Below are positions 6,476-26,180 of a DNA stretch of 42,916 nucleotides, one piece after another (position 1 is the stretch's first letter; every line of letters begins with the position of its first letter). Source of the DNA: Candidatus Poseidonia sp. (GTDB lineage: Archaea > Thermoplasmatota > Poseidoniia > Poseidoniales > Poseidoniaceae); assembly GCA_030827745.1 (NCBI GenBank), contig JAURDW010000010.1:1-42916 (forward strand). Reading direction: 5' to 3'. Made by a program: the position numbers and the translations under genes. Under the pieces are notes generated by a model. That model saw nothing but the letters and a program-made list of their open reading frames with translations. It was not told the origin of the DNA and searched no databases.

Positions 6476-7789
6476 TCAGAATCCTCGTGCCCCCGCAAGG
6501 GCGGTTGAAAGCAACATGTCAGGCTCCCAGTCCATGATGTTCACACCAAGACCACGGAGTTCGCCGATAAGCACGTCCCGTTCGGTCTTCATGACTTCGT
6601 AACCCGTCCGGTCGATGCGCTTGGCGTCAAATTCAAACTCGAGCGAGGACGGCGAAAGCACCGTGACGTCAAAGTCTCGAGCGCGGAAGTCACGCAAGGC
6701 GTTGACGATGGTGGGGTCGTCCTCAAGGTTGGAGAGGAAGATGATCGGACTTCCTTTGTTGATGTGAGGCAGGATGCGGTTGACCACGACTTGCAGTGGG
6801 ATGTTGCCTCGGGCGACGGCTCCGGCGAGCTTGGTCAAAATCACGTAGAGTTGCTTCTTTCCAGTGTCGCGGTCCACGCTGACAACTTCGTCTCCGTAAA
6901 CGATCACGCCGACGGAGTCGCGACGGCCGAGGAAGTACTTCGCCAGCGATGCGGCCGCTCGGGTCGAGTACACCAACGCGTTGCGGGAAACGGGTCCCGT
7001 CTCTGCAACCGCTCGCGAATCGACGATGATGATGACGTCGGAAACAGCATCACGCTCACGCTCGTTGACCATCAATTTCCCCGAGCGTGCGTAGGCGGAC
7101 CAGTTGATGGCCCGGAACGAATCGCCCTCGAAGTACTCACGCAACGAGTAAAACTCGGAACCAGGACCTGGTTGACGAATGTTCACCGCACCGGTGAAAA
7201 TCTTCGGCACACGCGACTTGACGAAGGTCTCTTTGAGGTCTTCCATCTTCGGGAACACAAGGAAATCGTTGTAGACATGCAATTCTTTCTCCTTGTGGAA
7301 CAACCCGAAGGCGTCTTGAATGCGCACCGTGACCGGGCCGAGGCTGTAGAAACCACGAAGCGGGCACTCAACGGTGTATTCGATGAAGGTCTCTCGGCGG
7401 GGGCCGAGCTCCATCAAAATGTAGTTGGCGCCTTCCTTGATTCGCATAACTTCGGGAACACGGTCTCGCACCTCCAGAATCTTCGGAAGAGATGATGTGT
7501 TTTGCATCCTGAGCGTGACGTTCAGCTCACCGTCTTCGAACATGCGGGCGCTGGAGAGTTTGCGCATGGCGACGACGCTGCCAAGGGCAGCACCTTCCTC
7601 TCCCGACCATTCTTCAGCTCGTCGGCCGCTTGAAGCCACGTCGGCGTGGTTCCCCAGGAGTGCAGCCCATGTGAGGAACACAAAAATGACGACGGCAATG
7701 GTGACAAGTTGGGTGTTTCGGAGGGTCAAGCCAAGAAGATACATGGCAACAGCTAGGCTGCCAAGCATGGCTGACTTGCGACTCCACAT
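6476..7789 (-). CDS. DUF58 domain protein (MoxR-associated)
   Basis: A 437-aa protein with two N-terminal membrane segments (about 5-22 and 26-46), a beta-rich region, then the DUF58 signature: SLREYFEGDSFRAINW followed by SAYARSGKLMVNERE. The following part resembles a von Willebrand factor A fold (DVIIIVDSRA), but the MIDAS is incomplete because DxSxS is not preserved. DUF58 proteins are regularly encoded next to MoxR ATPases and are thought to be their membrane-bound partners or substrates. A gaggtga ribosome site precedes the start, 30 bp after the MoxR gene. The exact role here is unknown. Confidence 0.88.
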   Translation of the reverse strand: MWSRKSAMLGSLAVAMYLLGLTLRNTQLVTIAVVIFVFLTWAALLGNHADVASSGRRAEEWSGEEGAALGSVVAMRKLSSARMFEDGELNVTLRMQNTSSLPKILEVRDRVPEVMRIKEGANYILMELGPRRETFIEYTVECPLRGFYSLGPVTVRIQDAFGLFHKEKELHVYNDFLVFPKMEDLKETFVKSRVPKIFTGAVNIRQPGPGSEFYSLREYFEGDSFRAINWSAYARSGKLMVNERERDAVSDVIIIVDSRAVAETGPVSRNALVYSTRAAASLAKYFLGRRDSVGVIVYGDEVVSVDRDTGKKQLYVILTKLAGAVARGNIPLQVVVNRILPHINKGSPIIFLSNLEDDPTIVNALRDFRARDFDVTVLSPSSLEFEFDAKRIDRTGYEVMKTERDVLIGELRGLGVNIMDWEPDMLLSTALAGARGF

Positions 7790-7819
7790 GTTCGATTCAC
7801 CTCGGTGTGCGGTTCAACT

Positions 7820-8947
7820 TCAAACCGTGGGCACAGGGACTTCTCGGAGGATGGCCTGAATGACCTCCCCTGATTCGAGACCCTTGATTTGGTGCTCGGG
7901 CTTCAAGATGATACGGTGGGCGATGGCAAGCTCTGCGATGGCCTTGACGTCGTCGGGTGTGACGAAGTCGCGACCACGAAGTGCTGCGGCTGCGCGAGAC
8001 GTCTTCAACAGGGCTTGAGAGCCACGAGGTGAAGCGCCAACGAGCACACGGGGGTCCTCACGGGTGCGGGACACGATCTCGACCATGTACATCCGCAGCG
8101 CAGGGTCGACGTAGACGTCTTCACAGGCTTGCTGCATGGCGATCACACGGGCGGGGTCGGTAATGACATCAACGTCAACAGCGTCCTTTCCACGGCTGAT
8201 ACGGCGGGCGAGGATTTCGTCTTCATCGGCTCGGTCAGGGTAACCCACGGACATCTTGAACATGAATCGGTCAAGTTGTGCTTCAGGAAGCGGGTAGGTA
8301 CCTTCCTGCTCAACGGGGTTTTGCGTGGCCATAACGATGAACGGGGCTGGCAACTTGTGCGTCACCGTACCGATGGTCACCTGCTTCTCCTGCATGGCCT
8401 CAAGCAGAGCAGCTTGGGTCTTGGGAGGTGCACGGTTGATCTCGTCAGCCAGAAGAAGGTTGCAGAACAACGGGCCGGGCTTGAACGTAAACTCGCCCTT
8501 CTTGGCGTCGTAAATGTTCGTACCGGTGATGTCAGCAGGGAGCAAGTCAGGCGTGAACTGAACACGCTTGAAGTCGCAACCAAGAGCGTCGGCAAAGGTG
8601 TTGGTCATCAACGTCTTGGCCAATCCAGGGTAGTCTTCGAAGAGAAGGTTCCCGTTGGACAGGATGTTGATCAACACGTTGTCGATAACGTGCGACTTTC
8701 CGATGATGACCTTTTGGACTTCGGCTGCGATTGCTTGCGCAATCGCACCGACGGCCTTGAGGCGCTCTCGGACTTCGGGGGTGCTTTGGTGCTTCGGCTG
8801 GGCCGGAGCGGCCGGTGCTGCAGGCGCGGCGGGTGCGGCGGGTGCCACCGGTGCCGCTGGAGCGGCGGGGGCGGCAGGGGCCACGGGTGCTGCGGGCGCT
8901 GCAGGAACAGGCGCGGGCGGGGCTGCTGGGGGGGCTGGGGGTTGCAT
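7820..8947 (-). CDS. MoxR-family AAA+ ATPase with Pro-Ala N-terminal tail
   Basis: A 375-aa ATPase. Residues 1-50 are almost purely Ala and Pro with some Val, a tail not usual in MoxR proteins. The AAA+ core follows: Walker A in EDYPGLAKT (Lys111-Thr112), Walker B in LLLADEIN (Asp168-Glu169), sensor 1 in MATQNP (Asn210), and the family hallmark EQEGTYPLPEAQLDRF. MoxR proteins act as chaperones in assembly of enzyme or envelope complexes together with VWA/DUF58 partners. An aaggagga ribosome site lies 8 bp before the ATG. It sits between the DUF4350 and DUF58 genes, the classic arrangement. Confidence 0.92.
   Translation of the reverse strand: MQPPAPPAAPPAPVPAAPAAPVAPAAPAAPAAPVAPAAPAAPAAPAAPAQPKHQSTPEVRERLKAVGAIAQAIAAEVQKVIIGKSHVIDNVLINILSNGNLLFEDYPGLAKTLMTNTFADALGCDFKRVQFTPDLLPADITGTNIYDAKKGEFTFKPGPLFCNLLLADEINRAPPKTQAALLEAMQEKQVTIGTVTHKLPAPFIVMATQNPVEQEGTYPLPEAQLDRFMFKMSVGYPDRADEDEILARRISRGKDAVDVDVITDPARVIAMQQACEDVYVDPALRMYMVEIVSRTREDPRVLVGASPRGSQALLKTSRAAAALRGRDFVTPDDVKAIAELAIAHRIILKPEHQIKGLESGEVIQAILREVPVPTV
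8805..8945 (-). repeat. GC-rich degenerate repeat encoding an Ala-Pro tail
   Basis: About 140 bases of imperfect 9-15 bp repeats of the form GCNGCNCCN on the coding strand, encoding repeated PAAPAAP/PVAPAAP units at the start of the MoxR gene. The units are not identical, so this is a diverged low-complexity tract, probably prone to length change between strains. The encoded stretch would be extended and flexible, acting as a linker or a binding arm. Confidence 0.75.
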
Positions 8948-8964
8948 GTCTTATCCTCCTTGTT

Positions 8965-10548
8965 TCAATTTCCCCAACGACGGATGTGCGGGATGAGTTC
9001 CCTCAATTCATCGCTGGAGTAGACGCGGTTCGAACTCACGAGTTCGACCAATCGGGGTTCGCGGACCATTTGCATGATCTCTGCGGGGGACTTGCGCGCA
9101 AAATCGTCGCGCGTCAGGTCGTTGAAGTTGCGGACCTTGGCGAGGAAAGCCTCACGGGTCCGCCGTTGGTATTGAGAAGGGTCCAATTTGGAAGGACGTT
9201 CTCGGAATCGGGTCAAGTCAAACACATGACGCCAATTCTCTTTCTCTGGCACCACCATGATGGCGATGGCGAGGAGAGCGAACAAATTGAGGATGATAAG
9301 CCACTTGAGGACTCCATCGCTCGTGAGCAAGACGATGGCGCCCATGGCTTCCGTGAACGGCATCGAAAGGGTGCTTGAAACGTGCCGGCTTTCGTCGAAC
9401 ACGATGTTGAACGCCCCGGTGTTGCGAGAGACGGTAGCAGACAAATCTTCGTTGTCAAACTCCATCATATCGTTGATGAGCGCCGTGAAGAAGAATTCGT
9501 TTCCTCTCCAAGTGGTGTCACCCAGTCCTTTGTTCAGGCCTTCGGAATCGGTGTCCCAACACATGTGGCCGTTCTGAATGTACAACTCGGAGTCGCACTG
9601 TTCCTTGCCGGTTTCCTCTGCGACGGCTTGGTCCCAAAGGTGGTTGGCGAGGACAGAATGGTCCGAAACGAAGACAATACTTCCCGTTGCGCTGATTTCG
9701 CCGATGTCACCGCCTTTTGCGATCTTGCGCTGGTCAAGGACCTCTTGTCCAGGGTAATCAATGCGGATGATAAGACCGGTCTCGCCTTCACCGAGGGTGG
9801 GATTGGATTCGCCTTTGCCTGCGTCGATTTCGGCGGAGGTGGAAGCCGCAGCAAGAACATGAATTTGCCGTTTGGTGTCGGCTTGGTCGTCGAGGACTTG
9901 GATGGCCGTGGGACGGTGGAAGAGCACCGGTGTGCGACAATTGGCGACCGATTGTTGGCTTACGTCGTCTTCAGAGCAGGGGACGGCCTTTTCCTCGCCC
10001 ATGGCGTCAACGCCTCGGGTGATGCCGGCAACCGCCCATATCTTTCGAGTATCGGGAGAAACCCGAGTCCCGTCGTCTGCGGTGACCTCGTAATAGCGGC
10101 CGGTGTTGATGTCGTCCCGGATGGGGGAATCAAAGTATTTCACGCCAAATTCCTCAGCGACGAGTTGGGCGTTGGTCGAGTTGGAGGCGAGGATCACCTT
10201 TCCAGCGCGTTCGGTGACAAAGTCGTGGAGGGCTGCGGCCTCAGCGGCGTCAAACGGCTTCTCTGGAGCTGCGATGACCAGCAAGGTGCGGTGCGGGTTT
10301 TGCCAGTCGTTGACCAGCATGGGCGTGGACATCGTGTTGGCGACGTTGAAACTCTGGTCGTCGAGCGTGGACCGCATGAGCGTGAGTTGTTGTTCAGAAT
10401 ACTCATCGTCGTTCTGGTAAGGGGAAAAGACCGTGGTTTTGCCGGCCGAGACAACGGCGATCACCAGGGTTGAAAGGGCAACGGAGGCTACGAGACCAAT
10501 CATGAGCCAGGCTTCGAGGCTCAATCCCGATTTGTTTGCGTCCGCCAT
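8965..10548 (-). CDS. Membrane-anchored DUF4350-like protein
   Basis: A 527-aa protein with an N-terminal membrane segment (about 13-36), a large domain outside or inside the membrane, a second membrane segment near residues 420-445 (WLIILNLFALLAIAIMVV), and a polar C-terminal ~80 residues rich in Arg. The region around RTLLVIAAPEKPFDAAEAAA, followed by a 'FDSPIRDD' stretch, resembles DUF4350, whose members lie beside MoxR/DUF58 genes and look like modified class I glutamine amidotransferase folds without catalysis. A ggaggagag ribosome site precedes the ATG. It is 17 bp upstream of MoxR and heads this module after a 176-bp spacer. Confidence 0.75.
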   Translation of the reverse strand: MADANKSGLSLEAWLMIGLVASVALSTLVIAVVSAGKTTVFSPYQNDDEYSEQQLTLMRSTLDDQSFNVANTMSTPMLVNDWQNPHRTLLVIAAPEKPFDAAEAAALHDFVTERAGKVILASNSTNAQLVAEEFGVKYFDSPIRDDINTGRYYEVTADDGTRVSPDTRKIWAVAGITRGVDAMGEEKAVPCSEDDVSQQSVANCRTPVLFHRPTAIQVLDDQADTKRQIHVLAAASTSAEIDAGKGESNPTLGEGETGLIIRIDYPGQEVLDQRKIAKGGDIGEISATGSIVFVSDHSVLANHLWDQAVAEETGKEQCDSELYIQNGHMCWDTDSEGLNKGLGDTTWRGNEFFFTALINDMMEFDNEDLSATVSRNTGAFNIVFDESRHVSSTLSMPFTEAMGAIVLLTSDGVLKWLIILNLFALLAIAIMVVPEKENWRHVFDLTRFRERPSKLDPSQYQRRTREAFLAKVRNFNDLTRDDFARKSPAEIMQMVREPRLVELVSSNRVYSSDELRELIPHIRRWGN

Positions 10549-11676: not shown

Positions 11677-12645
11677 TCACTCACCCATCAACGCCTTGAC
11701 GGCTCGTTTGGTGAGGGTTCTCACCATTGAACGGCGGTAACGAGGGGGGAGAGCCGTGTTGTTCACGGGTTTCACGGCCTTGTGGACGGCTTTGGCAAGG
11801 GCACTACCATTCATGCCGTCGGTTTGGAGCACCTGCGCCACTTCTTCTGCGTGGAGACGCGGTATGGACTCAAGGGCGGTGCTGGCGAGAGCGAGCGATT
11901 CGGGCTGACCTTGAATCCACGAGGCTGCGATGCCGGCCTCGGGGAAATCCCACGAATCGCGAACACGGAGTTTTTGATAGGAACCGGTCCTTTCAAGCGC
12001 CGTTTCGGGAAGGACGACCTTGAGCAAGAATTCACCTTCCTCCAGGACGTTCTTCTTCATACCGTCGAGGGCGTAAAACTCGTGAAGCGGGAGGGTGCGT
12101 TCGCCCTTGGGGCCAACCAACACCACTTCGGCACCAAGGACCATGAAATTGGGGGCGAGATCGCCCTGGTAGGTGGCCACGCAGAGCGTGTTTTGGTTGG
12201 GAATCACTCGGCAATCCGCACCTGTACCGCAATCGGCCTTGTGGCACCAGTCAATGGAACGCCGCCAATCTTCGCCCTGGTTGTACCAGAAGCAACGGGT
12301 GTCGAGGCAAAGGTTGCCGCCGACCGTCGCACTCTTCCGAATCAAAGAAGAGGCAACTTTCGCAGCCGCCTCGGCCAGCAGTGGATGGACGCCGTTGGCC
12401 ACGGTCAGGGAGGCAAGGGGAACCATGCATCCGATTTCCAATGGACTGAGCGCGTGGGCGCTTTCAATGCCGGCGAGGGAAATAACATGAGGTTTCGGAT
12501 TGATGTGCCATTTGTAATTGGGCAAGACATCGGTGCCGCCAGCGACCCAATCAAAGGCTTCCCCTGCCTCCAGCAACGAAGCAGCGAGCGCGACAGCGTC
12601 TTCCACACTGGCCGGGTGATGCAGTTCGAAAGGTGGCATCAGCAT
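11677..12645 (-). CDS. Molybdenum hydroxylase FAD subunit with extra 4Fe-4S loop (HcrB-like)
   Basis: FAD-binding subunit of a xanthine dehydrogenase-family enzyme, 322 aa. The FAD motifs are AGGTDVLPNYK (about 35-45) and TVGGNLCLDTRC (107-118). The stretch after this carries Cys118, Cys134, Cys145 and Cys155. These align with the four Cys that bind a [4Fe-4S] cluster in 4-hydroxybenzoyl-CoA reductase HcrB (Cys122, 138, 146 and 155 as I recall); surrounding residues (DTRCxxYNQ, WRRS, CHK, CRV, CVATYQGDLAP) also match. Ordinary xanthine dehydrogenase or CO dehydrogenase FAD subunits lack this loop. The enzyme is therefore closer to 4-hydroxybenzoyl-CoA reductase or a related dehydroxylase, but the substrate is not proven. 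Confidence 0.87.
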   Translation of the reverse strand: MLMPPFELHHPASVEDAVALAASLLEAGEAFDWVAGGTDVLPNYKWHINPKPHVISLAGIESAHALSPLEIGCMVPLASLTVANGVHPLLAEAAAKVASSLIRKSATVGGNLCLDTRCFWYNQGEDWRRSIDWCHKADCGTGADCRVIPNQNTLCVATYQGDLAPNFMVLGAEVVLVGPKGERTLPLHEFYALDGMKKNVLEEGEFLLKVVLPETALERTGSYQKLRVRDSWDFPEAGIAASWIQGQPESLALASTALESIPRLHAEEVAQVLQTDGMNGSALAKAVHKAVKPVNNTALPPRYRRSMVRTLTKRAVKALMGE

Positions 12646-15455
12646 CAGGCATCATCCTCCATGTGGCGCTGTTCTTTCTTCAGCCAAGCGCGTCCCGCGA
12701 AACCCAACTCAGCAAGTTGTTCGGGCAACGGCTCGTCGGCCTCGCGCCAACCCTCGACTTGATCGGCCAACGGCCTGTCAGGGTCAAAACCGAACAAGAC
12801 CCCGTTCACATAGGCCGAGGTGTCCTCGCTGCGCTGGCGCAAACGGTCACGCTCTCGGTGGGATTCCCCCCGGGCTTTGAGCGTGGCTTGTAAGGTCCCG
12901 TGCTGCAGGCGTGGAGATGGAAGGTCAAGCGGGTCCTCAAGACCTGTTTTCTTCAGGTGTTTTTCGATACCGTTGTAGACAACGTCGGGGGTCAGGGGCA
13001 AGTCCCGTAGTCGAATGCCAATGGCGTCGTAGACCGCGTTGACAACCGCTGGAAGGATGGGGAGGAGGGGGCCTTCGCCGGCTTCCTTTGCGCCAAATGG
13101 CCCCTCGGGGTCGCTCGATTCGACGATGATGGCTTCGACGTGGGGCATTTCATGCACGGAAGGGATCTTGTATTCCAGCAAGTTTGCATTTTGAAGGTGG
13201 CCGGTTCGGCCGTACACCATTTTTTCGGTGAGAACTTGGCCCAAGCCCATGTGGCACGAGCCAATGATTTGGCCTTTGACCGCCAAGGGATTCAGCGCCT
13301 TGCCGCAATCGTGGGCCGCCCAAACATTGGTGCAGGAAACCAAGCCAGTTTCCACGTCAACGTCAACCTCAGCCACATAGGCCGAGAAGGAGTAGGCGGG
13401 TGCAAGGCCCGCAGCTGCTCCTTTGTGGACACCGCCCATGGGAGGGGAGCGGTAAGCCCCCCGCGCAATGAGGGCGCCTTTGTCCTCTTGCGCTTTGTGC
13501 AGGGCTTCAAGGTACGACACGCCGATGGAAGGGTCGTGCTTGTAGTAGATGCGCCGGTCGTTCAAAACCAGCACGTTGGGGTGATACCCTAACATCTGCC
13601 AGGCTGCATTGAGCAACTGGTCCCGAATCTCAATCGCTGCACGGATGGCTGCGTTGGCGTTCATGAACGTCACTCGACTCGAATAGGAACCGAGGTCGAC
13701 AGGACTCGTGTCGCTTTCGTGGCTTCGGACGTGAATCATCTCCACCGGGAGGGCCAAGACCTCAGAGACCACCTGAGCCACGGCGGTGGTGGAGCCTTGA
13801 CCGATGTCGGCAGCGCCGGTGTGAACCGTGACTCCCCCGTCCATGTCAACTTGGATATGAACGGTGGCATGAGGGAAATTCTTCGGGTCCCAATGGATGG
13901 GAAGGCCCGAGCCTGAAATAAAGAAACCGCAACCGATACCAATGCCCTTCCCGAGGGGCAGTTGGCGGAATTTCTCGTCCCAGTTTGAACCTTCTCGCAC
14001 CCGTTCAAGCGCTTCACGCATCCCGTTGGACGTGATTCGGAAGCCGCTGATGGTTCGGCTGTGGGGTGGGAGGAGATTGGCCAAGCGAAGGTCAATAGGG
14101 TCCACCTGCATGCTCTCGGCCATCTCGTCCAATCCGACCTCGACGGCGCATCGGGTGTTGACCGCACCGTGCCCTCGCATGGCTCCCGAAGCGGGTTTGT
14201 TGGTCCACACACGAGCGCCCGTGTAATGGAATGAACCGAGTTCGTACGGTGCGGTGGCTAAAACCCCGTTGTAGTACGAAGTAACGTGGCCAAAAGAGGC
14301 AAAGCCTCCACCGTCAATCAGGGCGTCGATATCAAAGCTGGAGATGCGGCCTTCCTCGTCCGCCGTCATCTTGACGTCGATGTGACTGGGATGTCGGCCT
14401 CGGTTGATCCAGTACACCTCCTCCCGGTCGAACGTGATTCGAACCGGCTTTCCAGAACTTCGGGCCAGAAGGGCAGCGCACATCTCGTGAGGGAACGGGT
14501 CGGATTTCCCGCCAAAGCCGCCACCGACGAACGTGCGGATGACGTTGATTTGATGCATGGGGACATCAAGAACCGTTGAGAGAGCCCGGTGGGTGTAGTG
14601 AGGCACCTGTTGGGGCGTGTAGAGTTGCAAGCGACCGTTCGGGTCCCAGTGAGCCACCACGGCGTGGGGTTCGGTGAACCCGTGGTGGACGCCTAACATC
14701 GTCCACGAGCCATGGGAGGCTGCGTGAGGATTGTTGACCAAGGAACGGTCGCCAAACTCTTGAAACACACGCTTTTGCACGTTGGTGCGCGCAAGGTGGT
14801 ACTTTCCGCGCCAATGGATGGGCTCATCATGGTCCTCTAGACCTTCTTTCGGGTCAAAGACGGGCTCCAAAACCTCCCACTCAATTTCAAACAACGAAAG
14901 CGCCTCAATGGCGGTCGCTTCGTCAACGGCAGCAACGCAGGCCACCAAATCGCCGACGTGACGAACTTTTTCCACCGCCATCGCGTGTTCATCCTTAGTC
15001 ACCGGGAGCACACCGAAACGGTTGGGTGCATCTTGACCTGTCGCAACGGCAACAACACCTGGGAGCGCTTCAACCTTGGAAGTATCAATCGATTTAATCC
15101 GAGCGTAATGATGAGGCGAGCGAAGGATTTTCCCAATCAACTCACCGGGAAGTCGAACATCATCACCGTACCAAGCCTGACCGGTGACTTTCGCATTCGA
15201 ATCGACCAGCGGCATCGCCTTCCCGACGGAAGTTCCGGTCCTCGCACGGTCGTGGATGTGGTCACCTGCCGGTTTGGGCTCCCTTCCACCGACGGTTTCG
15301 GGAATGAAATCCAGGTCTCTTGGGCGCATGGATGGGTCCGACCCGCCTGAGCCAGGTGGAGGGAAAGATTGCTTCCCAGCAACGCGCTTGCCGTCCTTTC
15401 GGATTTCGGCGGACGACGCGCCCGGTTGCTGTTTGTACGACCCCATGGTGATCAC
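12645..15455 (-). CDS. Molybdenum hydroxylase large (Moco) subunit
   Basis: Catalytic subunit holding molybdopterin cytosine dinucleotide, 936 aa from the GTG at 15455 (933 from an ATG at 15446). Family motifs: FVGGGFGGK, GAMRGHGAVN, ADIGQGSTTAVAQV, AAHDCGKALNP, and the C-terminal GAKEAGEGP with the catalytic Glu. The core aligns with HcrA/XdhA-type subunits of about 770 aa. An N-terminal stretch of ~75 residues and a C-terminal one of ~90 polar residues are extra. There is no AYRCSF-type loop of CO dehydrogenase. It overlaps the small subunit gene by 4 bp and meets the FAD subunit gene, so the three genes form one tight operon. Confidence 0.9.
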   Translation of the reverse strand: MITMGSYKQQPGASSAEIRKDGKRVAGKQSFPPPGSGGSDPSMRPRDLDFIPETVGGREPKPAGDHIHDRARTGTSVGKAMPLVDSNAKVTGQAWYGDDVRLPGELIGKILRSPHHYARIKSIDTSKVEALPGVVAVATGQDAPNRFGVLPVTKDEHAMAVEKVRHVGDLVACVAAVDEATAIEALSLFEIEWEVLEPVFDPKEGLEDHDEPIHWRGKYHLARTNVQKRVFQEFGDRSLVNNPHAASHGSWTMLGVHHGFTEPHAVVAHWDPNGRLQLYTPQQVPHYTHRALSTVLDVPMHQINVIRTFVGGGFGGKSDPFPHEMCAALLARSSGKPVRITFDREEVYWINRGRHPSHIDVKMTADEEGRISSFDIDALIDGGGFASFGHVTSYYNGVLATAPYELGSFHYTGARVWTNKPASGAMRGHGAVNTRCAVEVGLDEMAESMQVDPIDLRLANLLPPHSRTISGFRITSNGMREALERVREGSNWDEKFRQLPLGKGIGIGCGFFISGSGLPIHWDPKNFPHATVHIQVDMDGGVTVHTGAADIGQGSTTAVAQVVSEVLALPVEMIHVRSHESDTSPVDLGSYSSRVTFMNANAAIRAAIEIRDQLLNAAWQMLGYHPNVLVLNDRRIYYKHDPSIGVSYLEALHKAQEDKGALIARGAYRSPPMGGVHKGAAAGLAPAYSFSAYVAEVDVDVETGLVSCTNVWAAHDCGKALNPLAVKGQIIGSCHMGLGQVLTEKMVYGRTGHLQNANLLEYKIPSVHEMPHVEAIIVESSDPEGPFGAKEAGEGPLLPILPAVVNAVYDAIGIRLRDLPLTPDVVYNGIEKHLKKTGLEDPLDLPSPRLQHGTLQATLKARGESHRERDRLRQRSEDTSAYVNGVLFGFDPDRPLADQVEGWREADEPLPEQLAELGFAGRAWLKKEQRHMEDDA

Positions 15456-16054
15456 TTCGCATGGCCGGGAGGCATGGTGGGCTCTTCGGGCCCGGAGGGG
15501 TGCGGGTCGGGATGAGGCGAACTGGCCGGCTCGGCACCCTCTACCTCGCCCCGGTGAATGGCAGCGGCTGCCTCAATGGCATCGATGATTTGCTGATAAC
15601 CCGTGCACCGGCAGAGGTTGCCTTCAATCGCCGTCGCGATTTCGTCTCGTGAAGGTGAATCGTTTTCGTTCAGAAGGGCTTGTGAAGCCACCAAGAACCC
15701 TGGCGTGCAAAATCCACATTGCGAGCCGCCGTGCGTCGCAAAGCAGGTTTGAATCGGAGCGAGGTGAGCCCCGTTGGACAAGCCCTCAACCGTGATGATT
15801 TCGGCACCTTCAACCTGACCGGCGAGGGTGAGGCACGAGAGTTTCGGAACACCGTTTATCATCACTGTGCAACATCCGCAGGTCCCCAGATCGCAGCCAC
15901 GTTTGACACCAAGTGTTCCGACTTTGTCACGCAAAACGTCCAACAAAACCGCATTGCTTGGCGCCAAGACCTCAACGGGCGTTCCGTTCACCTTTGCAGA
16001 CCAAGGTTGGCCCTTTGGCGTGGGTATCATGGATACGTGTTCCTTGCCCACCAT
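15452..16054 (-). CDS. Molybdenum hydroxylase 2Fe-2S subunit
   Basis: Electron-transfer subunit with two [2Fe-2S] clusters, 200 aa. The ferredoxin-like N-domain has Cys54, Cys59, Cys62 and Cys74 (CDLGTCGCC then Cys after 11 residues). The C-domain has CGFC (113, 116) and CRC (148, 150) separated by 31 residues, the exact family spacing. The last ~35 residues are Pro, Glu and Ser rich and are an addition to the usual length of about 160. It is the first gene of the molybdenum hydroxylase operon and overlaps the large subunit gene by 4 bp. Confidence 0.93.
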   Translation of the reverse strand: MVGKEHVSMIPTPKGQPWSAKVNGTPVEVLAPSNAVLLDVLRDKVGTLGVKRGCDLGTCGCCTVMINGVPKLSCLTLAGQVEGAEIITVEGLSNGAHLAPIQTCFATHGGSQCGFCTPGFLVASQALLNENDSPSRDEIATAIEGNLCRCTGYQQIIDAIEAAAAIHRGEVEGAEPASSPHPDPHPSGPEEPTMPPGHAK

Positions 16055-16120: not shown

Positions 16121-17200
16121 TCACTCCTCTTCTTGGAATTCACCACCAAATTTTGATTCCATCGCTTCGAGGGCGTTGCGAAGCACCAACCCGTGGTACA
16201 CTCGAATTTTTTTGCCCTTGACTTTCTTGTTGACTTCTTGCTCCAAATCCTTGAGCACATCGAGGGTTTTTGCAGTATCGATTTCGAAAAGCAGTTTACG
16301 ATATTCGTTGCGACGAGCGATGAAGAAGCCAAGGTAGACTGGAATCAAAAGAAACGGTATGACGAGCTCCTCAAACACGATTTCTGCCACACCTGACATC
16401 GAAATTTCAAACGAGTCCGTGTCGTAATCGAAACCGAAGGAACCCGGCCCAAGCCCGCCGGCGTAGAAAATACCGGTGTTGACTCCGAAATACATGGTGA
16501 ACGGCGTTTCCGTGTCGTCGTAAATATCAGAGCCTCGATCCAATTCAACTGCATCTGGCCAACCGTCGTTATCGTTGTCTTTGTCAAGGACATCGGGAAT
16601 GGTGTCTTGGTCAGCGTCGGGGGGCGTGGAGGCCGCATTAAACGGGTCGTAGAGGACGGTGCCCGAGGAAGCCGACCGCTCCATTTCGTTGCGTATGCCG
16701 TCGCCGTCGGCGTCGTCATCGTAGATATCGGGAATGAAATCACCGTCGATGTCCGAACATCCCTTCAATCGAATTTTGCTTTTCCCGTACGTGTGGGGGC
16801 AGTTGTCGGTCAACGGATGTTGCCCTTGGTCGGCATATCCGTCGCCATCGTCGTCCGACCAAATACCCGCGTCTTCGGGCCAAAGGTCCTCCTCATCAAG
16901 GGCGCCGTCACCGTCCATGTCCTCGTCGATGTCGTCACCTAAACCGTCCTGATCGAGGTCTCGGTGTTCGCTTGCATTTTCGGGAAAAGCATCGGCGCCC
17001 ATGGAGACGTTCCAATTCTCGTCGGGGTCCGACCAACCGTCCCCATCTGAATCCAAACAACCGAGGCGGTCCTCTGTGGAGTCGCCTTGGACGGCGCAGG
17101 TGGGTTCGGTTTGCGCTTGGGCATGCATCGCACCGAGAACAGAGAGAAGGAGAACGGTGGCGAGCAGAAAGGTACGATGAACCGCCACATGGCGAACCAA
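16121..17200 (-). CDS. Secreted thrombospondin type 3-repeat, membrane-anchored protein
   Basis: A protein of up to 359 aa. A signal peptide (LLATVLLLSVLGAMHAQA) is followed by about 170 residues of Asp-rich repeats such as DSDGDGWSDPDE, DLDQDGLGDDIDEDMDGDG and DADQDTIPDVLDKDNDNDG. These are thrombospondin type 3 / dockerin-like calcium-binding loops. A membrane segment lies around 283-305, and a cytoplasmic tail of ~55 residues is Lys and Glu rich and probably helical. The start codon is TTG at 17200 or GTG at 17188; the ATG between them is out of frame. Likely a cell-surface calcium-binding protein; partner unknown. It is transcribed in the same direction as the molybdenum hydroxylase genes, 66 bp before them. 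Confidence 0.82.
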   Translation of the reverse strand: MVRHVAVHRTFLLATVLLLSVLGAMHAQAQTEPTCAVQGDSTEDRLGCLDSDGDGWSDPDENWNVSMGADAFPENASEHRDLDQDGLGDDIDEDMDGDGALDEEDLWPEDAGIWSDDDGDGYADQGQHPLTDNCPHTYGKSKIRLKGCSDIDGDFIPDIYDDDADGDGIRNEMERSASSGTVLYDPFNAASTPPDADQDTIPDVLDKDNDNDGWPDAVELDRGSDIYDDTETPFTMYFGVNTGIFYAGGLGPGSFGFDYDTDSFEISMSGVAEIVFEELVIPFLLIPVYLGFFIARRNEYRKLLFEIDTAKTLDVLKDLEQEVNKKVKGKKIRVYHGLVLRNALEAMESKFGGEFQEEE

Positions 17201-17269
17201 CCGACCCTTCCTAATGGCTTTTTTTCAACTGCAAAACAGGAGGAAGGTTTGAATAGGGAACAGTATCAA

Positions 17270-17818
17270 ATGAATAGCATGACCAAAATATTGGCTTTTC
17301 TGACCTTGACGCTGCTGTTGACTCCACTTACGGGGTGCACGGCTGAAGAGGAAGAGGAGGCAGTGGCGTTCCCTGCGTTCTCGAGCCTTGCGGACAACGA
17401 CGAAACCTACGACAATGCGCGCATGGCCGGTTCGCCGTTCATCGTGGTGTTTTCGGCCGAATGGTGCAACAGTCCGTGTTACACCACCATGCACGCTCTT
17501 TGGGCGGCACAACCGGAGTTGCCCGTGCTGGTGATGTCCACCGACCCCGTTGAGAACGCAACCGGCGTTACACTCTCCGAATGGCATGCCTCGGCAGACG
17601 CTCACGACGACGACGACACAACCGGTGACGCCGGTGTTTCCCTCACGACGTATGCCTTCATGAAGGGAAGTGAAGTCGCCGCTGCCCTCGACATCACCCG
17701 CCCAGGCTCGTTGGCCTTCGTCAACGGGGAAGGGGAGGTCACCTACCTGCACGAGGGGCGCATGGACGACACCGATGAGATTCTCAAACGGTGGTCGGAA
17801 GCCTCGGGCACGGCCTGA
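17270..17818 (+). CDS. Thioredoxin-fold lipoprotein with CxxxC motif
   Basis: A 182-aa exported protein. The signal peptide ends in a lipobox (LTPLTGC), so the Cys is likely lipidated and the protein tethered to the outer face of the membrane. Acidic residues follow (EEEEEA), then a thioredoxin-like domain with FIVVFSAEWCNSPCYT. The active-site pair is spaced CNSPC (three residues between) instead of CxxC. A later ITRPGSLAFVNGEGEV stretch corresponds to the cis-Pro strand region. ATG is at 17270 with a second at 17279; a TTG at 17249 lies closer to aggagga (17238-17244). Probably a surface disulfide-handling or redox protein, single-gene unit. Confidence 0.8.
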   Translation: MNSMTKILAFLTLTLLLTPLTGCTAEEEEEAVAFPAFSSLADNDETYDNARMAGSPFIVVFSAEWCNSPCYTTMHALWAAQPELPVLVMSTDPVENATGVTLSEWHASADAHDDDDTTGDAGVSLTTYAFMKGSEVAAALDITRPGSLAFVNGEGEVTYLHEGRMDDTDEILKRWSEASGTA

Positions 17819-19956: not shown

Positions 19957-22900
19957 ATGGCAGCACCTCGGCGTCGGATCACACAAGTTCAACCTTCACA
20001 AAGCACCTCGGCCCCCAACGCAGCAATCGCTTCACCGCTGCAAGGCGGCATCAGGGCTCATGAAGAACCTGCTTCCCCGTCCATGACCGTCCACGTCCCA
20101 GGGACAAGCCAGCGAGAGCAGGACCAGTTCATGCTCAAACTCTCCCAAATGGTGATGATGGGCATTGGCTTCTTGGCCATTTGGGGCGGGATTTTCAGCG
20201 TTGCCTTTGACGAAGAGGCGACAAATGAAAACTTCCTCGTCCTCTTCGTCGGGGGTTTGGCCTCGTTCGCTGTGTCCGTCGCTTTGATCGAGATGCAAAG
20301 CAAAAAAAATGAACACCACCTTCTCGATATTCAAAACTATATTTTGGGAATTGCATTTTTCTTCTCTACCGTCGGGGTTCTCTGGGGCACGCGGTACGCC
20401 GTGGGTTTCGCCACCGGGGTCTTGGAACTGGACTTTTTTGGTGACCCCACATACTACACAGAAACGGATTGGTCCCCGAACGCCAACGCCATCTATGCCC
20501 AAACCTTGACCTGTTTGCTTCTCACGTACGGGCATTACCGCCTGCTTCAACGCTACAAAGGCCAAACCAGCTTCGGCTGGGGCGTGGCCACCTACGCCCC
20601 AATGGCCATCCTCTTGGCCGGCGTCGGCCCTTGGATTCGCTGGTCGAACGATGTGGTCAGTTGGGAACTCGGCATCGCCATGTTGAGCATCACCTTGGTC
20701 TCGTTGGAAATGTCCTTGCGTTCAAACAAAGCTCTCAACTTTGTCGTGGTGGCCTTTGTTGCCGGATTGGTTCCCCTCGTTTACGAGGGATTGAACACCA
20801 ATGCACCCGCAGACGGAGCTGGAGGCGCCCTTTCGTTGATGGTGTTCGTGATCGCCATCCAAGGTTACTTTGCCGCCCGACAGGACCTCCGCAAGGAAGT
20901 TATGGAGCGGGCTTCGTTGCTCTTGATCGGTCAAATCGTCTTCGCACTCTTCTTGGTCCGCATTTCGACCAACGAGTTCAACCTCATCCTCGGGCCTTTC
21001 AGAGCAGGTGACTACCCTGCCCTGGCAGATTACATCAACGTCCCTGTCGCCCTCTGGTGCACCGTTTTGTTCGCCTACTTTCCTGCGGTGCTCAAGCAGC
21101 GAGTCCCTTGGATGCCCATTGGGCTAGCGGGCGCTCTCGTCTTGATTCCCTCGGATGCATCAACGGTGCCTTGGGTGTTGAGCATGCTCATCCTCCCCTA
21201 CATGGTGTTCATTTCCAAGGTCGCCCGAACGTGGGTCGTGAACCTGACGATGTTGGCGTTTAGTGCCTCCTATTTGTTAACGGATTGGTATGCCTATACC
21301 CAAGACATTCCGGCGAAGGAAGCCTTCGGAGGGACGTGGCTCCACGTTTTGATTCCAGTTTTCCTTTTGGCCGTAGCCGAACTCGGACGCTCCCAACAAC
21401 GGCTCCAGACCAGCATTACGCTCGCCATGATTGGAGCCGTTGTCCTCTCGAGAGCCATCCTTGACCCTGAATGGTATCTTCCATGGTTGCTCGTTGCGTA
21501 CATGTTTTTCCTCAATTGGAACACGTTGCAAACGGCCGATATCCAGCGCGTTCAGCACCGAAAGGACGCCACCCTCGCCATGCTTTTCACCACCTTCACG
21601 GTCATCCTTTTGGCCGTCCTTGACAACCTCACCCTACCAGAAGTTCAAGCGATTGAGCGTGTTGTCGATGTTGGGTTTCGACCTCAATTTTTGGTCCTAA
21701 GCATCGCCTTTTACGTCCTTTCCGCAAGGGGGCGACACGTGGAATTTGACGTTGGTTCTCTCCTGAAGTGGTTGGACCAAGGCAACGCCCATGCACCTCG
21801 ATACGACGCCGAAACGGGCACGTGGGTCGTGAAGAGCGTTGATGAGGTGGACAAAGACCAGAGCATCACCGAAGCCGCTTGGGGGCCCTTAGCACGGTTC
21901 TCCGTGGTAGGTTGGCTGATGATGTTCACTTTTTCCATCAACCTTCTCCGCGTTGACGTTTGGGGAACCAGCCCGTTCATCGTTCTCTTGCTTGCCCTTC
22001 CGGTGGCCATGCTCGTGCGTGAATTCCTCCGCATGGAAGCCATCGGTTCGACGGACAGAGCAACGGGCGTTGGGCTCCTCATCTTCCTCGCCGTTCCACT
22101 TGCATGGCAACTCAACGACGCTGCTTGGATGGGCGTTGATGTCTTTGGAGCAAGCGTGCTTCTTGATGCGGTCTTGGTGACGGCACCTCTGGTGGTCAAC
22201 GCCGTGATCCAGCGACGTGGCATCGATGAAACGGTGCTGAATCGAGAAGCGGATGGAGCCACGTACCTGTTGTTGCTCGGTTTGGCCCTTTTGGACACCT
22301 CAGGAGGAATCCTGTTCCTTCCGTTGGCCGTTTTGGTGGCTTGGCGAACGGTTCGGCACCGCTACCACGCCATCACGTTGTTCGTCCCGTTGGCAGCGTG
22401 GCTGGCCGATGTGGGTCGGGACGCCAATGGGTTGGTCGGAAGAGGCCTCGAGGCCCTTCCTCAGAATGTGAGCGATTACCTTGCGAGCGACCACAACGGG
22501 CCGTTTCAGGCCTACCTTGGGATCTTTGTGGCGGTGCACATGCTTGCCCAGCTTTACAACATGTACAAGGTTGAAGAATCAGAAAACGAAAACGCCCTTT
22601 GGGTTTGGGGTGCCATCCTTTGGTTTACCCTTGCTCTCCTTTCCATCCTTCCGGACGGCTACTGGATTCCGACCCTCGTCGTTCTTTTACTCATGCCGTA
22701 CCTTTACGCAACCAACAGAAGCGATGGGCTTCCATACGCCTTGGGGTTGCTCTTTGTTGCGCTGTTTTTCGGATTTTCATTCAGCAACACGTTTCAGCCG
22801 ATCAGCGACGGCGATGCGGCAGGCTGGAGCGGGGTGCTCACCGGTGCAACCGGTTGCTTGATGGCGGCGCTTCACGCCAAAGGCATGCTGTTTAAACAGG

Positions 22901-24042
22901 CGGCTGAAAACGAGGAAGAACTGCGGCAACAAAACGACGTTGCTCAACTGAGCATCCAAATCGGAGGGTTGGGTTTTGTCGCTGGCTACAGCGTATTCTA
23001 CGGACTTGGTCCCGTCATGGGGTTGGCTGTTCTCACGTGGTCCATGGTTCGTGATGGGAAACTCGGTGGAATTGTCCTCTTTCCGCTCCTTTCGACGTTC
23101 AGCGTTGTCAACATCTTGCTGCAAAGCGAGTTGGGTTCCAACGACCAACGCACCACCATCGCCGGTGTTGCATTAGCAGTGCAAGGCGTGATGTTGACCT
23201 TCCTTTCTGCAAAAGACGACCTCGTGTACGACTTTGAAGGCGCATCATGGCCTTCGGACAACGAGTTCTTTGCTTTCATGGACCGGCTGGGTCTTGCCGG
23301 GCTTGCGTATTCGCTCATCGGTGTGTATGTGGCCTTGAACACTGCTGACTTGGATTCGGCGGCCTTCTTGCTCATGACGGTGTACCTCGTCGTTATCGGC
23401 GTTCAAGGATTTGATGAGGAGAACGATGCTGTGTGGCGTCGCGGATTGGGGGGTTACGGCTCCATCTTCACCTCTTTCTTGTTTGCAAACTCGCTTGAAA
23501 ACGCTCTCTTTGGAGCCATCGGGTTTGTGTTGATGGGCATCGTCGCCCTCGGCTTTGGTTTCTTGTTCATGCAGCGTATGAACGAAGACGACGGCATTTT
23601 TGTTGGGCCAGAAGAGCCAATCGCCCCCTCGGATCCGTCCGAGGAGAACGAGACTGAGGCGCTCAACAAGGCTGATGAGGACGATGGGAGGGAGCAAAAA
23701 GACGAGGCCGATGATTTGGAGAGCAAACCACAAGCAGAGGACACGGAGGTTGAGGCAGGGGATGAAACCGAACCGGTCGAGGCCACAAGCGCCAGCGAAG
23801 CAACGGCGTTCCTTGAGCGACTGTCAAACACGACCAAAGGAAAGGATGCACCCCTTCCACACAGCGGCCTGCTTTCAACCGCCGAAGGCTTCTCTGTCCG
23901 CCTGCCATCGGATGCGGTGACGAAGATTCTTGACACGTTAAACGCAACACCGCACGAAGGTTATCTCCCCGTGGTCGCCTTTGGACCAACCGGCGAGATC
24001 ATGCTTACGTTTGAGGAGGACAAGGGCGTACTCAGCAACTGA
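19957..24042 (+). CDS. Giant polytopic membrane protein of unknown function
   Basis: A 1361-aa protein I cannot place in a family. Residues 1-60 are polar. From about 64 to 1220 there are roughly 35 hydrophobic segments with short loops; the longest soluble loop is around 600-645. An acidic linker of ~80 residues (Glu, Asp and Ala rich) follows, then a conserved-looking small C-terminal domain (about 1285-1361) with SAEGFSVRLPSDAV-like character. No transporter, glycosyltransferase or channel motif is visible. The size and segment number recall large bacterial DUF2339-type proteins, but no specific similarity is claimed. It stands alone, divergent from the S8 protease gene. Confidence 0.85.
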   Translation: MAAPRRRITQVQPSQSTSAPNAAIASPLQGGIRAHEEPASPSMTVHVPGTSQREQDQFMLKLSQMVMMGIGFLAIWGGIFSVAFDEEATNENFLVLFVGGLASFAVSVALIEMQSKKNEHHLLDIQNYILGIAFFFSTVGVLWGTRYAVGFATGVLELDFFGDPTYYTETDWSPNANAIYAQTLTCLLLTYGHYRLLQRYKGQTSFGWGVATYAPMAILLAGVGPWIRWSNDVVSWELGIAMLSITLVSLEMSLRSNKALNFVVVAFVAGLVPLVYEGLNTNAPADGAGGALSLMVFVIAIQGYFAARQDLRKEVMERASLLLIGQIVFALFLVRISTNEFNLILGPFRAGDYPALADYINVPVALWCTVLFAYFPAVLKQRVPWMPIGLAGALVLIPSDASTVPWVLSMLILPYMVFISKVARTWVVNLTMLAFSASYLLTDWYAYTQDIPAKEAFGGTWLHVLIPVFLLAVAELGRSQQRLQTSITLAMIGAVVLSRAILDPEWYLPWLLVAYMFFLNWNTLQTADIQRVQHRKDATLAMLFTTFTVILLAVLDNLTLPEVQAIERVVDVGFRPQFLVLSIAFYVLSARGRHVEFDVGSLLKWLDQGNAHAPRYDAETGTWVVKSVDEVDKDQSITEAAWGPLARFSVVGWLMMFTFSINLLRVDVWGTSPFIVLLLALPVAMLVREFLRMEAIGSTDRATGVGLLIFLAVPLAWQLNDAAWMGVDVFGASVLLDAVLVTAPLVVNAVIQRRGIDETVLNREADGATYLLLLGLALLDTSGGILFLPLAVLVAWRTVRHRYHAITLFVPLAAWLADVGRDANGLVGRGLEALPQNVSDYLASDHNGPFQAYLGIFVAVHMLAQLYNMYKVEESENENALWVWGAILWFTLALLSILPDGYWIPTLVVLLLMPYLYATNRSDGLPYALGLLFVALFFGFSFSNTFQPISDGDAAGWSGVLTGATGCLMAALHAKGMLFKQAAENEEELRQQNDVAQLSIQIGGLGFVAGYSVFYGLGPVMGLAVLTWSMVRDGKLGGIVLFPLLSTFSVVNILLQSELGSNDQRTTIAGVALAVQGVMLTFLSAKDDLVYDFEGASWPSDNEFFAFMDRLGLAGLAYSLIGVYVALNTADLDSAAFLLMTVYLVVIGVQGFDEENDAVWRRGLGGYGSIFTSFLFANSLENALFGAIGFVLMGIVALGFGFLFMQRMNEDDGIFVGPEEPIAPSDPSEENETEALNKADEDDGREQKDEADDLESKPQAEDTEVEAGDETEPVEATSASEATAFLERLSNTTKGKDAPLPHSGLLSTAEGFSVRLPSDAVTKILDTLNATPHEGYLPVVAFGPTGEIMLTFEEDKGVLSN

Positions 24043-24088: not shown

Positions 24089-24637
24089 ATGGGCGAAGAA
24101 TCGCATCGAATGGTTTGGATGGACTTGGAAATGACCGGACTCGATGTTGAAGCCGAATCCATCATTGAAATCGCCACCGTGGTGACCGATGGCGATCTCA
24201 ACATCCTCGCCCAAGGTCCCAACCTCGCCATTCGTGTCTCGGATGACCTGCTGGAAGGCATGGACGAATGGAACACTGCCCACCATCACAGCAGCGGGTT
24301 GGTCGACCGCATCAAGAACGAAGGGGTCTCCCTCAAATCGGCGGAAGACGCCACCTTGGCCTTCCTCACCCAATGGGTTGAGCCCAACACGGCCCCGCTC
24401 TGTGGAAACAGCATCTGGAACGACCGCCGTTTTTTGGAAAAGGAGATGCCCCGCCTGCTTGACTTCCTCCACTACCGAATGGTCGATGTTTCAACGGTCA
24501 AAGAACTGGCCCGCCGATGGCACCCCAGCCTTCCTCGCTACCCAAAAAAGGGGGCCCATTTGGCTTTGGACGACACGTTGGAGAGCATCGAGGAATTGCG
24601 CTACTTCCGAGCGAACGTCTTCCATCATGAAGACTGA
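24089..24637 (+). CDS. orn: Oligoribonuclease (DEDDh 3'-5' exoribonuclease)
   Basis: A 183-aa protein that degrades 2-5 nt RNAs to mononucleotides in the cytoplasm. The signature VWMDLEMTGLD holds the first Asp and Glu; CGNSIWNDRRFL holds the third acidic residue; AHLALDDTLESI holds the catalytic His and last Asp. Length and motif spacing match Orn well. The start at 24089 is chosen because the frame upstream overlaps the giant membrane protein and is unlike Orn. Its 3' end overlaps the convergent xdhC gene by 13 bp. Orn is mainly bacterial and eukaryotic, so presence in an archaeal context suggests horizontal transfer. Confidence 0.93.
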   Translation: MGEESHRMVWMDLEMTGLDVEAESIIEIATVVTDGDLNILAQGPNLAIRVSDDLLEGMDEWNTAHHHSSGLVDRIKNEGVSLKSAEDATLAFLTQWVEPNTAPLCGNSIWNDRRFLEKEMPRLLDFLHYRMVDVSTVKELARRWHPSLPRYPKKGAHLALDDTLESIEELRYFRANVFHHED

Positions 24638-25527
24638 CGCCAGGTGGCGTCGTTGGGGTCCACGTTTTTGTGTGCAGCCATGATTTGCGCAACGACGGCC
24701 ACAGCAATTTCTTGGGGCGTTTGCGCACCAATGTTCAGGCCGATGGGGCAGACCACTTGGTCGAGGAGGGAAGAAGCGATACCTTCGTTGCGACAAACGC
24801 TCTCAAAGGCTTGCCATTTTGAGCGGCTTCCAATCACGCCAACACGGGGCGCTTCTACCCCGTCAAGGGCCGCATTGGCACCGTGGGCAATCTGTAAGAT
24901 ACCGAGCAAGCGTTCTTGATCTTCAGCCCAATCATGCCCGAGGAGCACGATGTCCGAGAATCGCTTCAGCGACTGGAGAGTTTCGTTCGAGAATACCTCG
25001 TTGGCGGGTACAGTGGAACGCGCTTGAGCCACCGGATATTTTTCTATAGAAACGAAGTCTTCCCTGGTGTCGTGGACGGAATACGACCATTCGAGAGAAT
25101 GGAGGCATGCCGCTATGGCTTCCCCGCAATGACCGCCGCCCATGATGTACACGTGGGGCATGGGAATCATCACCTCAAGAGCCACGGTGACTCGGCCACC
25201 GCAAAGAGAATCAAGCGGCGTTACTTCATAGCCCTTCGCCCCTTTGTTCAAGCCGTAAGTGTGAACTTCAGCCGCAGGCGAAACGGTCTCTGAAAGGAGG
25301 GTGCGGCATCGTTGCAGCACGGTCTTCTCAAGGCCGGCACCGCCCACGGTGCCCACCCATTCTTCGCTCCGTGCGGAGAGGGCAAGCCTGGCTCCTGTCT
25401 TTCCCGGAACGCTCCCCGACGTGTTGAGGACGGTCGCCATGACGGTCCGATGGCCTGAGCGCTGCTCGTGCAGAACCCATTCAAGCACCCGAGCGGTCAT
25501 AGGGATGCCTCGGTGGGTGGCCCTCAT
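24625..25527 (-). CDS. xdhC: XdhC/CoxI-type molybdenum hydroxylase maturation protein
   Basis: A 300-aa protein of the XdhC family, which binds the molybdenum cofactor and aids its sulfuration and insertion into xanthine dehydrogenase-type enzymes. N-terminal domain: GSVPGKTGARLAL (38-50), TVGGAGLEKTV and CGGRVTVALEV (109-119). C-terminal Rossmann-like domain: VYIMGGGHCGEA (about 126-137), then IVLLGHDW and VGVIGSRSKW. The ATG at 25527 overlaps the MocA-type gene stop in ATGA, so the two are co-translated. The likely client is the three-subunit enzyme encoded at 11677-16054. No other molybdenum hydroxylase is in the window. Confidence 0.9.
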   Translation of the reverse strand: MRATHRGIPMTARVLEWVLHEQRSGHRTVMATVLNTSGSVPGKTGARLALSARSEEWVGTVGGAGLEKTVLQRCRTLLSETVSPAAEVHTYGLNKGAKGYEVTPLDSLCGGRVTVALEVMIPMPHVYIMGGGHCGEAIAACLHSLEWSYSVHDTREDFVSIEKYPVAQARSTVPANEVFSNETLQSLKRFSDIVLLGHDWAEDQERLLGILQIAHGANAALDGVEAPRVGVIGSRSKWQAFESVCRNEGIASSLLDQVVCPIGLNIGAQTPQEIAVAVVAQIMAAHKNVDPNDATWRQSS

Positions 25528-26135
25528 ATCCCTTCGCCTTGGGCGTAATAGGCCAGTAGGGCGTGCTCGTTTGTGCGAAGTTCTTCCAATTGTTGCGGCG
25601 TGTCGATGTTCAAATTTAGCCAAGGAGCGACCACACTCACTGGATGAAACGCAACGAGGTCTCGGAGCGGTGCGTCGGCGTTGGCTGCCAGCACCGCCTC
25701 AATGGCATCCTCATCCAAGACAACTGGATGGCCGCGCCCGTGCTGCCCTACGGGGCAAGCAGACCCTCCGTTGTCAAGCAACGACCGGACGAGGGAAGGG
25801 CGCCAGCCAGGACGGTCAACCGGAGCCATCACCGCACGACCAACATGAACGTTCAACGAACGAAGGCGTTGCAACCCGACTTGGAGACTCCCCGTTCGTC
25901 CCTTTTCCGGTTCAGGATTCACCACCGTGATGACGTTTGGAGGAAGCGTGTTCGGTTGAGGGCGAAGATGTTCGTTGATGACCACCACCACCGGTGAACA
26001 GCCCGCTTTGATGAGATGTCGACACGCCCAGGTCAACAAGGTGGCACCCCCCAGTTCGACCAAGGCCTTGGGTGAACCGAGACGCTGGCTCAGACCCGCT
26101 GCAAGAACAAGTCCCGAAACGGCGGCAGAGGCCAT
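25524..26135 (-). CDS. mocA: Molybdenum cofactor cytidylyltransferase (MocA-like)
   Basis: A nucleotidyltransferase of the MobA/MocA family, about 203 aa from the ATG at 26135 (a GTG at 26153 is possible). The N-terminal motif is LAAGLSQRLGSPK (about 11-23); the AAG form rather than AGG is typical of MocA, which uses CTP to make molybdopterin cytosine dinucleotide for xanthine dehydrogenase-type enzymes. APVDRPGW (about 104-111) is the metal-binding Asp region. It overlaps xdhC by 4 bp. An alternative is another NTP transferase, but pairing with xdhC strongly favours MocA. Confidence 0.88.
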   Translation of the reverse strand: MASAAVSGLVLAAGLSQRLGSPKALVELGGATLLTWACRHLIKAGCSPVVVVINEHLRPQPNTLPPNVITVVNPEPEKGRTGSLQVGLQRLRSLNVHVGRAVMAPVDRPGWRPSLVRSLLDNGGSACPVGQHGRGHPVVLDEDAIEAVLAANADAPLRDLVAFHPVSVVAPWLNLNIDTPQQLEELRTNEHALLAYYAQGEGI

Positions 26136-26180
26136 GACATGGTGTTTTGGCACGGCTTGAAGGAGTTTCTCCCCTTTTGG

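Follow-up and report, generated by a model that had tools for sequence, protein, structure and literature searches.

Two described membrane proteins invite comparison with the one considered here. PIEZO has 38 helices, with both ends inside. Arc3A of Pseudomonas aeruginosa (PA5114, a DUF2339 protein, PF10101) has 35 segments and stops lysophospholipids from accumulating under phospholipase attack, by a mechanism that its report gives as unknown (PMC8926400); a further paper confirms its lipase resistance (PMC12663445). The protein compared with them is encoded in a stretch of 42,916 nucleotides (the window) on contig JAURDW010000010.1 (C10) of a 1.74-Mb draft genome of Poseidonia (Marine Group II), and is called the giant protein below. 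Marine Group II archaea are uncultured and abundant in the ocean. The giant protein is a real, widely kept and undescribed membrane protein whose predicted architecture is unusual (Table 1).

An earlier note, made from the sequence alone, had called a reading frame of 1361 residues here, and this is a genuine gene under purifying selection, because 36 full-length sequences align at identities down to 18% and the ratio of nonsynonymous to synonymous substitution rates (dN/dS) is about 0.10 against the two nearest relatives (0.098 for L002 and 0.102 for L003, rough values since dS is near-saturated at ~1.7). Full-length relatives, L002 and L003 among them, open with the same MAAPRR, which supports the call of the ATG start. 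A single copy was found in the draft genome.

Presence across related archaea was confirmed. The single protein found matches in 187 of the 292 genomes of the class (expectation value, E, up to 0.001), and a profile of 36 members (A1) did so in 191 genomes from 18 of the 25 genera (E up to 1e-5). The positive genera are all 11 of family f1 and seven of family f2 (g12, g14, g15, g17, g19, g21, g22); the profile search detected no giant protein in the f2 genera g13, g16, g18 and g20, nor in at least g23 and g24 of f3. Of 389 genomes of the phylum that were scanned, 89 matched (E up to 0.01); six of these 89 belong outside the class, and their matches are partial (E from 1.2e-10 to 9.9e-4). Judged by its sequence, the match in one of the six, G328, is a surface protein of the NosD-like type that has an acidic tail and several hydrophobic segments, and it was not taken as a relative. 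No convincing relative is apparent outside the class among these 389 genomes, and the giant protein appears to be lineage-specific to Marine Group II archaea. In a FastTree phylogeny of 65 sequences the genera stay together, with the exception of g2, and f2 forms two clades whose joint monophyly was not recovered. Genome G176 holds two full-length copies. A second copy in G061 (L141, G061:C37) joins an f2 sequence in the tree and is probably bin contamination.

No described family accommodates the protein. Searches of Pfam and NCBIfam gave no match above chance for the 1361 residues, and when the 36 homologues were scanned singly against both, no family was common to at least two of them (for Pfam, among the best 25 of 38 weak families). 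A single-sequence search of the PDB sequences returned no match, and a profile search returned nine rows at chance level (best E 2.5), none named PIEZO. No PADLOC model matched when a defence role was looked for, and nothing in a viral structure library matched at E up to 0.001. No known transporter, polymerase or glycosyltransferase motif had been seen in the earlier note, and no profile of such families in Pfam or NCBIfam matched. No paper on the giant protein was found in open literature searches. Its description as truly undescribed therefore stands as far as Pfam, NCBIfam and the PDB sequences are concerned, since the profile searches placed it in no family, characterised or otherwise.

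The number of membrane segments depends on how they are counted. Alignment-averaged hydropathy gave 35 at two neighbouring thresholds, 28 at a stricter and 38 at a looser one. Several of the hydrophobic helices in the AlphaFold model are short (12-13 residues). When 39 helices were counted as crossings, the number of lysines plus arginines (K+R) per loop did not separate the two sides (1.32 on the N-terminal side, 1.45 on the opposite side). Omission of the amphipathic helix 599-610 separated them sharply (2.28 versus 0.45); this helix is the least hydrophobic of the called membrane helices, and its omission was decided after seeing the counts. Four stretches taken singly each alternate cleanly in loop charge. 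From the AlphaFold helices and this alternation without helix 599-610, 38 crossings are predicted, with the N- and C-termini both on the K+R-rich cytosolic side. The earlier estimate of about 35 was right to within three.

Conservation is concentrated near the N-terminus. Of 69 positions conserved in at least 85% of the 65 sequences, 44 fall within residues 96-431, and the conserved residues are mostly aromatic (W, Y), proline, glycine or small. Conserved arginines lie at cytosolic helix ends (R199, R382, R424, R701, R1161, R1162, R1207). The only conserved charges at least seven residues from the ends of a crossing are R146 and D737; E112 is six from an end. At a level of at least 70% of the sequences there is one conserved histidine and no cysteine, which speaks against a redox or metal site buried in the protein. 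Both C-terminal elements noticed earlier were borne out: the linker is acidic across the 36 members, and the small domain behind it is conserved across the order's two families (alignment A3). A search of five genomes with this domain found it in the giant protein only, further matches (E 0.02-0.6) being taken as chance.

An AlphaFold model of residues 50-1212, built from 65 sequences, reached a mean predicted local distance difference test (pLDDT) of 87.2 and a predicted template-modelling score (pTM) of 0.73, and a separate model of residues 55-451 (397 residues) reached 91.1 and 0.88. The predicted fold is a continuous two-layer row of membrane hairpins, that is, a membrane-embedded alpha-solenoid. 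In VIA-align the top match of the whole model was the designed helical-repeat protein 8tl7 (Z 16.0, 280 residues aligned, 4.7 Å), and the N-terminal model matched 8v3b (Z 17.2, 314 aligned, 5.7 Å) and 8g9j (Z 13.4, 191 of 201 residues, 2.9 Å). Foldseek against the PDB gave no convincing match; TM-scores in its top rows, which are soluble helical assemblies, were mostly 0.1-0.3, and these were not taken as relatives. Neither natural transporters nor PIEZO nor glycosyltransferases were among the fold matches listed, where a missing row proves nothing. Internal repeats, which the earlier note had proposed to look for, did not emerge from the sequence: among 64 block pairs the best real score was 26.1 and the best reversed control 24.6, none standing clearly above control, and a first set of blocks matched strongly only where the blocks overlapped.

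These results bear on two possible explanations. An undescribed type of transporter or channel, moving a solute, an ion or a polymer, would suit the many crossings and the few conserved charges inside them (R146, D737). However, the giant protein matches no transporter family by sequence, the model matches hairpins set in a row, and the fold matches listed are not headed by a natural transporter (although a missing row excludes no fold), so that we regard this explanation as unlikely. A mechanical scaffold for bending or stiffening the membrane, or for sensing tension in the manner of a PIEZO blade, would suit the solenoid-like row, and the predicted crossing number and sidedness are those of PIEZO, but no PDB chain matches in sequence beyond chance; PIEZO is not among the fold matches listed, which is inconclusive for the fold. 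Such a scaffold seems to us rather improbable.

The earlier note had named DUF2339 as a family to be checked. The Pfam profile (cut-off 33.6 bits) matches neither the giant protein nor two family consensus sequences, DUF2339 is not among the best 25 of the 38 weak families for the 36 members, and the genome itself contains no DUF2339 match. Profile blocks compared with L097, L098, L099 and L150 scored the same as reversed controls (mean 14.4 versus 14.7). Membership found no support from Pfam, from the consensus sequences or from the profile-profile blocks. Plasmid records held no DUF2339 relative for a better profile, and searches of the phylum yielded few. Other lineages of the phylum have very large polytopic proteins of their own (L097, L099, L150), of which L097 lies above the DUF2339 cut-off. 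The giant protein might still be an extremely diverged true member, a claim of ancestry that is compatible with lipid handling. Its size class and segment number are the same, and its C-terminal helix pairs form the best-scoring window in two archaeal DUF2339 proteins, weakly in L097 (38% probability) and far more weakly in L098 (0.7%). Against this stand the missing profile match, the block scores and the lack of a C-terminal match in L099, and we consider such descent quite unlikely.

Of the three functions that the earlier note had guessed at, lipid scaffolding fits best, whereas an ion-coupled or a surface-polymer role found no support here. Our best single guess, offered tentatively and by analogy with Arc3A, is that the giant protein may be a membrane-lipid scaffold or otherwise handle lipids. 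As has been proposed for Arc3A, its helix row would collect or enclose part of the bilayer lipids, or lipids that are damaged (lyso-lipids), and the cytosolic tail would recruit a partner. Its mode of action would resemble that of Arc3A, with no relatedness implied. Scaffolding fits best because of the helix-row fold, the lack of a conserved His/Cys pair or of a buried charge network, and the lipid-type neighbours found in some lineages. One of these is a gene of the CD36 family, which comprises lipid receptors in animals. It adjoins the giant gene in 8 of 8 genomes examined of g15, g17 and g22. Three of the eight are supported by Pfam (E = 1.2e-16, 3.5e-17 and 1.1e-12), that of L090 has a partial Pfam match under the cut-off (3.2e-4), that of L053 has no Pfam match and is 36-46% identical to other CD36-family neighbours, and the other three were identified through BLAST alone. 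CD36-family (PF01130) genes stand beside the giant gene of f2 genera at L152:1024-2889, L155:2869-5085 and L156:883-3390; literature searches for CD36 in archaea or Poseidoniales found, judging by titles, no description of an archaeal member. Furthermore, a gene of ~540 residues with an acyltransferase domain adjoins the hydroxylase small-subunit gene (see below) in G002, G043, G216 and G253; G034 and G235 show a truncated piece of it.

Marine Group II is a lineage in which a lipid-handling role would be plausible. Three studies describe the group as being without the archaeal glycerol-1-phosphate dehydrogenase and as having glycerol-3-phosphate routes together with putative bacterial-type PlsC and fatty-acid genes (PMC6962369, PMC7852524, PMC6461757); its lipids may therefore be bacterial-like or mixed. 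The acyltransferase family PF01553 was present in 37 of 37 genomes, whether or not they encode the giant protein, which fits a lipid potential and gives no co-occurrence signal.

Several results weigh against a lipid-handling scaffold. Open literature searches found no experiment on any member of the family. The DUF2339 profile misses the protein and both consensuses, and the block scores are those of reversed controls. In VIA-align a best Z of ~14 is typical of mostly helical models, and the solenoid matches lie little above this background and within its reach. PF01553 is equally present where the giant gene is missing, and neither the window nor most lineages have the CD36 and acyltransferase neighbours.

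A different partner is suggested by the gene order in the window, which runs from a molybdenum hydroxylase operon through a subtilase, the giant gene and an exonuclease (presumably oligoribonuclease-like) to xdhC and a mobA-like gene. The giant protein could serve the neighbouring hydroxylase, or the electron acceptor of that enzyme, as a membrane anchor or insertion factor. Its gene lies between xdhC and the small- or large-subunit genes both in the window and in several lineages from the two families, and in L050 and L084 it directly adjoins the small-subunit gene. XdhC stands beside the giant gene in 13 of 29 sources, separated from it by no more than the exonuclease and another subtilase-like gene; several of the other 16 are cut off by contig edges. 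However, the giant gene lies elsewhere, among varied neighbours, in g5, g12, g14 and g21, whose xdhC-cox cluster is intact but does not contain it, and the genomes of g13, g16, g18 and g20 have the hydroxylase cluster and no giant gene. All eight cox cluster regions read from these genera (one each) lack the giant gene, the xdhC side of the g16 region lying beyond the contig end. The single conserved histidine and the lack of a conserved cysteine also speak against this explanation. The conservation of neighbours raised by the earlier note was therefore found in part: the association is frequent, and it is broken in several genera. The xdhC-hydroxylase cluster looks like the ancestral site of the giant gene, which is not proof of a shared pathway, and a hydroxylase partner is in our estimate the least probable of the explanations weighed.

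Other features of the region were noted. A second, diverged subtilase-like gene lies between the giant and exonuclease genes in many f1 genomes (L042:6688-8067, L047:1384-2763, L153:6066-7499) and stays beside xdhC even where the giant gene is absent. Genes for DUF58, a MoxR-type AAA ATPase and DUF4350 stand in a row at positions 6476-10548 of the window, adjoining the hydroxylase operon. The hydroxylase large subunit (12645-15455) reads GAMRGHG at the place of the loop that contains a cysteine in form-I CO dehydrogenases, and is therefore probably not such an enzyme. An Asp-rich repeat protein with a hydrophobic segment (16121-17200) is thrombospondin-type-3-like by eye, and a lipoprotein gene on the opposite strand (17087-17818), thioredoxin-like by eye, overlaps its start; neither has a Pfam match.

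Table 1. Features of the giant protein, its gene and the neighbouring genes, with positions in the window.
Feature	Position	Strand	Evidence
Giant membrane protein gene, 1361 codons	19957..24042	+	Open reading frame, ATG start; relatives in 191 of 292 class genomes
N-terminal tail, residues 1-50, low complexity, predicted cytosolic	19957..20106	+	Sequence; side by positive-inside count
Membrane region, residues 51-1207, 38 predicted crossings	20107..23577	+	AlphaFold model, loop charges
Most conserved module, residues 90-448, crossings 2-13	20224..21300	+	Conservation; separate model
Signature RxPxMPIGLA, residues 382-391, predicted cytosolic face	21100..21129	+	R382, P384, P387 and L390 invariant in 65 of 65
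Large predicted cytosolic loop with amphipathic helix, residues 592-647	21730..21897	+	AlphaFold helices, loop charges
Acidic linker, residues 1208-1313	23578..23895	+	28% aspartate/glutamate, 5% K/R, mean of 36 members
Small C-terminal domain, predicted cytosolic	23896..24039	+	Pattern GF...LP......I...I..TPHEGF.PVV.....G.I.L.FE, alignment A3
Molybdenum hydroxylase operon, medium, large and small subunits	11677..16054	-	PF00941; PF02738, PF20256, PF01315, PF01799
S8 subtilase with C-terminal hydrophobic segment	17835..19919	-	PF00082, E=7.7e-54
Exonuclease, RNase_T by Pfam	24089..24637	+	PF00929, E=1.2e-31
XdhC/CoxI-family maturation factor	24625..25623	-	PF13478, PF02625
MobA-like nucleotidyltransferase	25524..26153	-	PF12804

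Set beside known systems, the giant protein, a large and widely kept Marine Group II protein outside any family, resembles each in part. With the designed helical-repeat proteins 8g9j, 8v3b and 8tl7 the model shares a two-layer antiparallel row of helices according to VIA-align; those proteins are designed and listed as nanocages or building blocks, whereas the giant protein is predicted to lie inside the membrane. With PIEZO it would share 38 crossings and two cytosolic ends, but the profile search of the PDB sequences gave no match between them. Arc3A is likewise a giant chain of about 35 membrane segments (35, against 35 by hydropathy and 38 by model and loop charges in the giant protein) without evident catalytic residues. 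The giant protein differs from Arc3A and DUF2339 in having no detectable sequence homology to them, in being confined to one archaeal class among the genomes searched, and in its own C-terminal domain. DUF2339, although it fails as a sequence match, would be the closest functional analogue. A bolder proposal, that the giant protein represents a new class, a 38-helix all-membrane alpha-solenoid forming a lipid-corralling wall, which would have arisen independently of Arc3A and DUF2339 and would help to order a mixed membrane in a lineage whose lipid genes are both bacterial-type and archaeal, strikes us as distinctly unlikely. If the giant protein does handle lipids, it would offer a handle on the lipid question in Marine Group II, and would be a second, apparently unrelated case of the principle seen in Arc3A, a long row of helices guarding membrane lipids.

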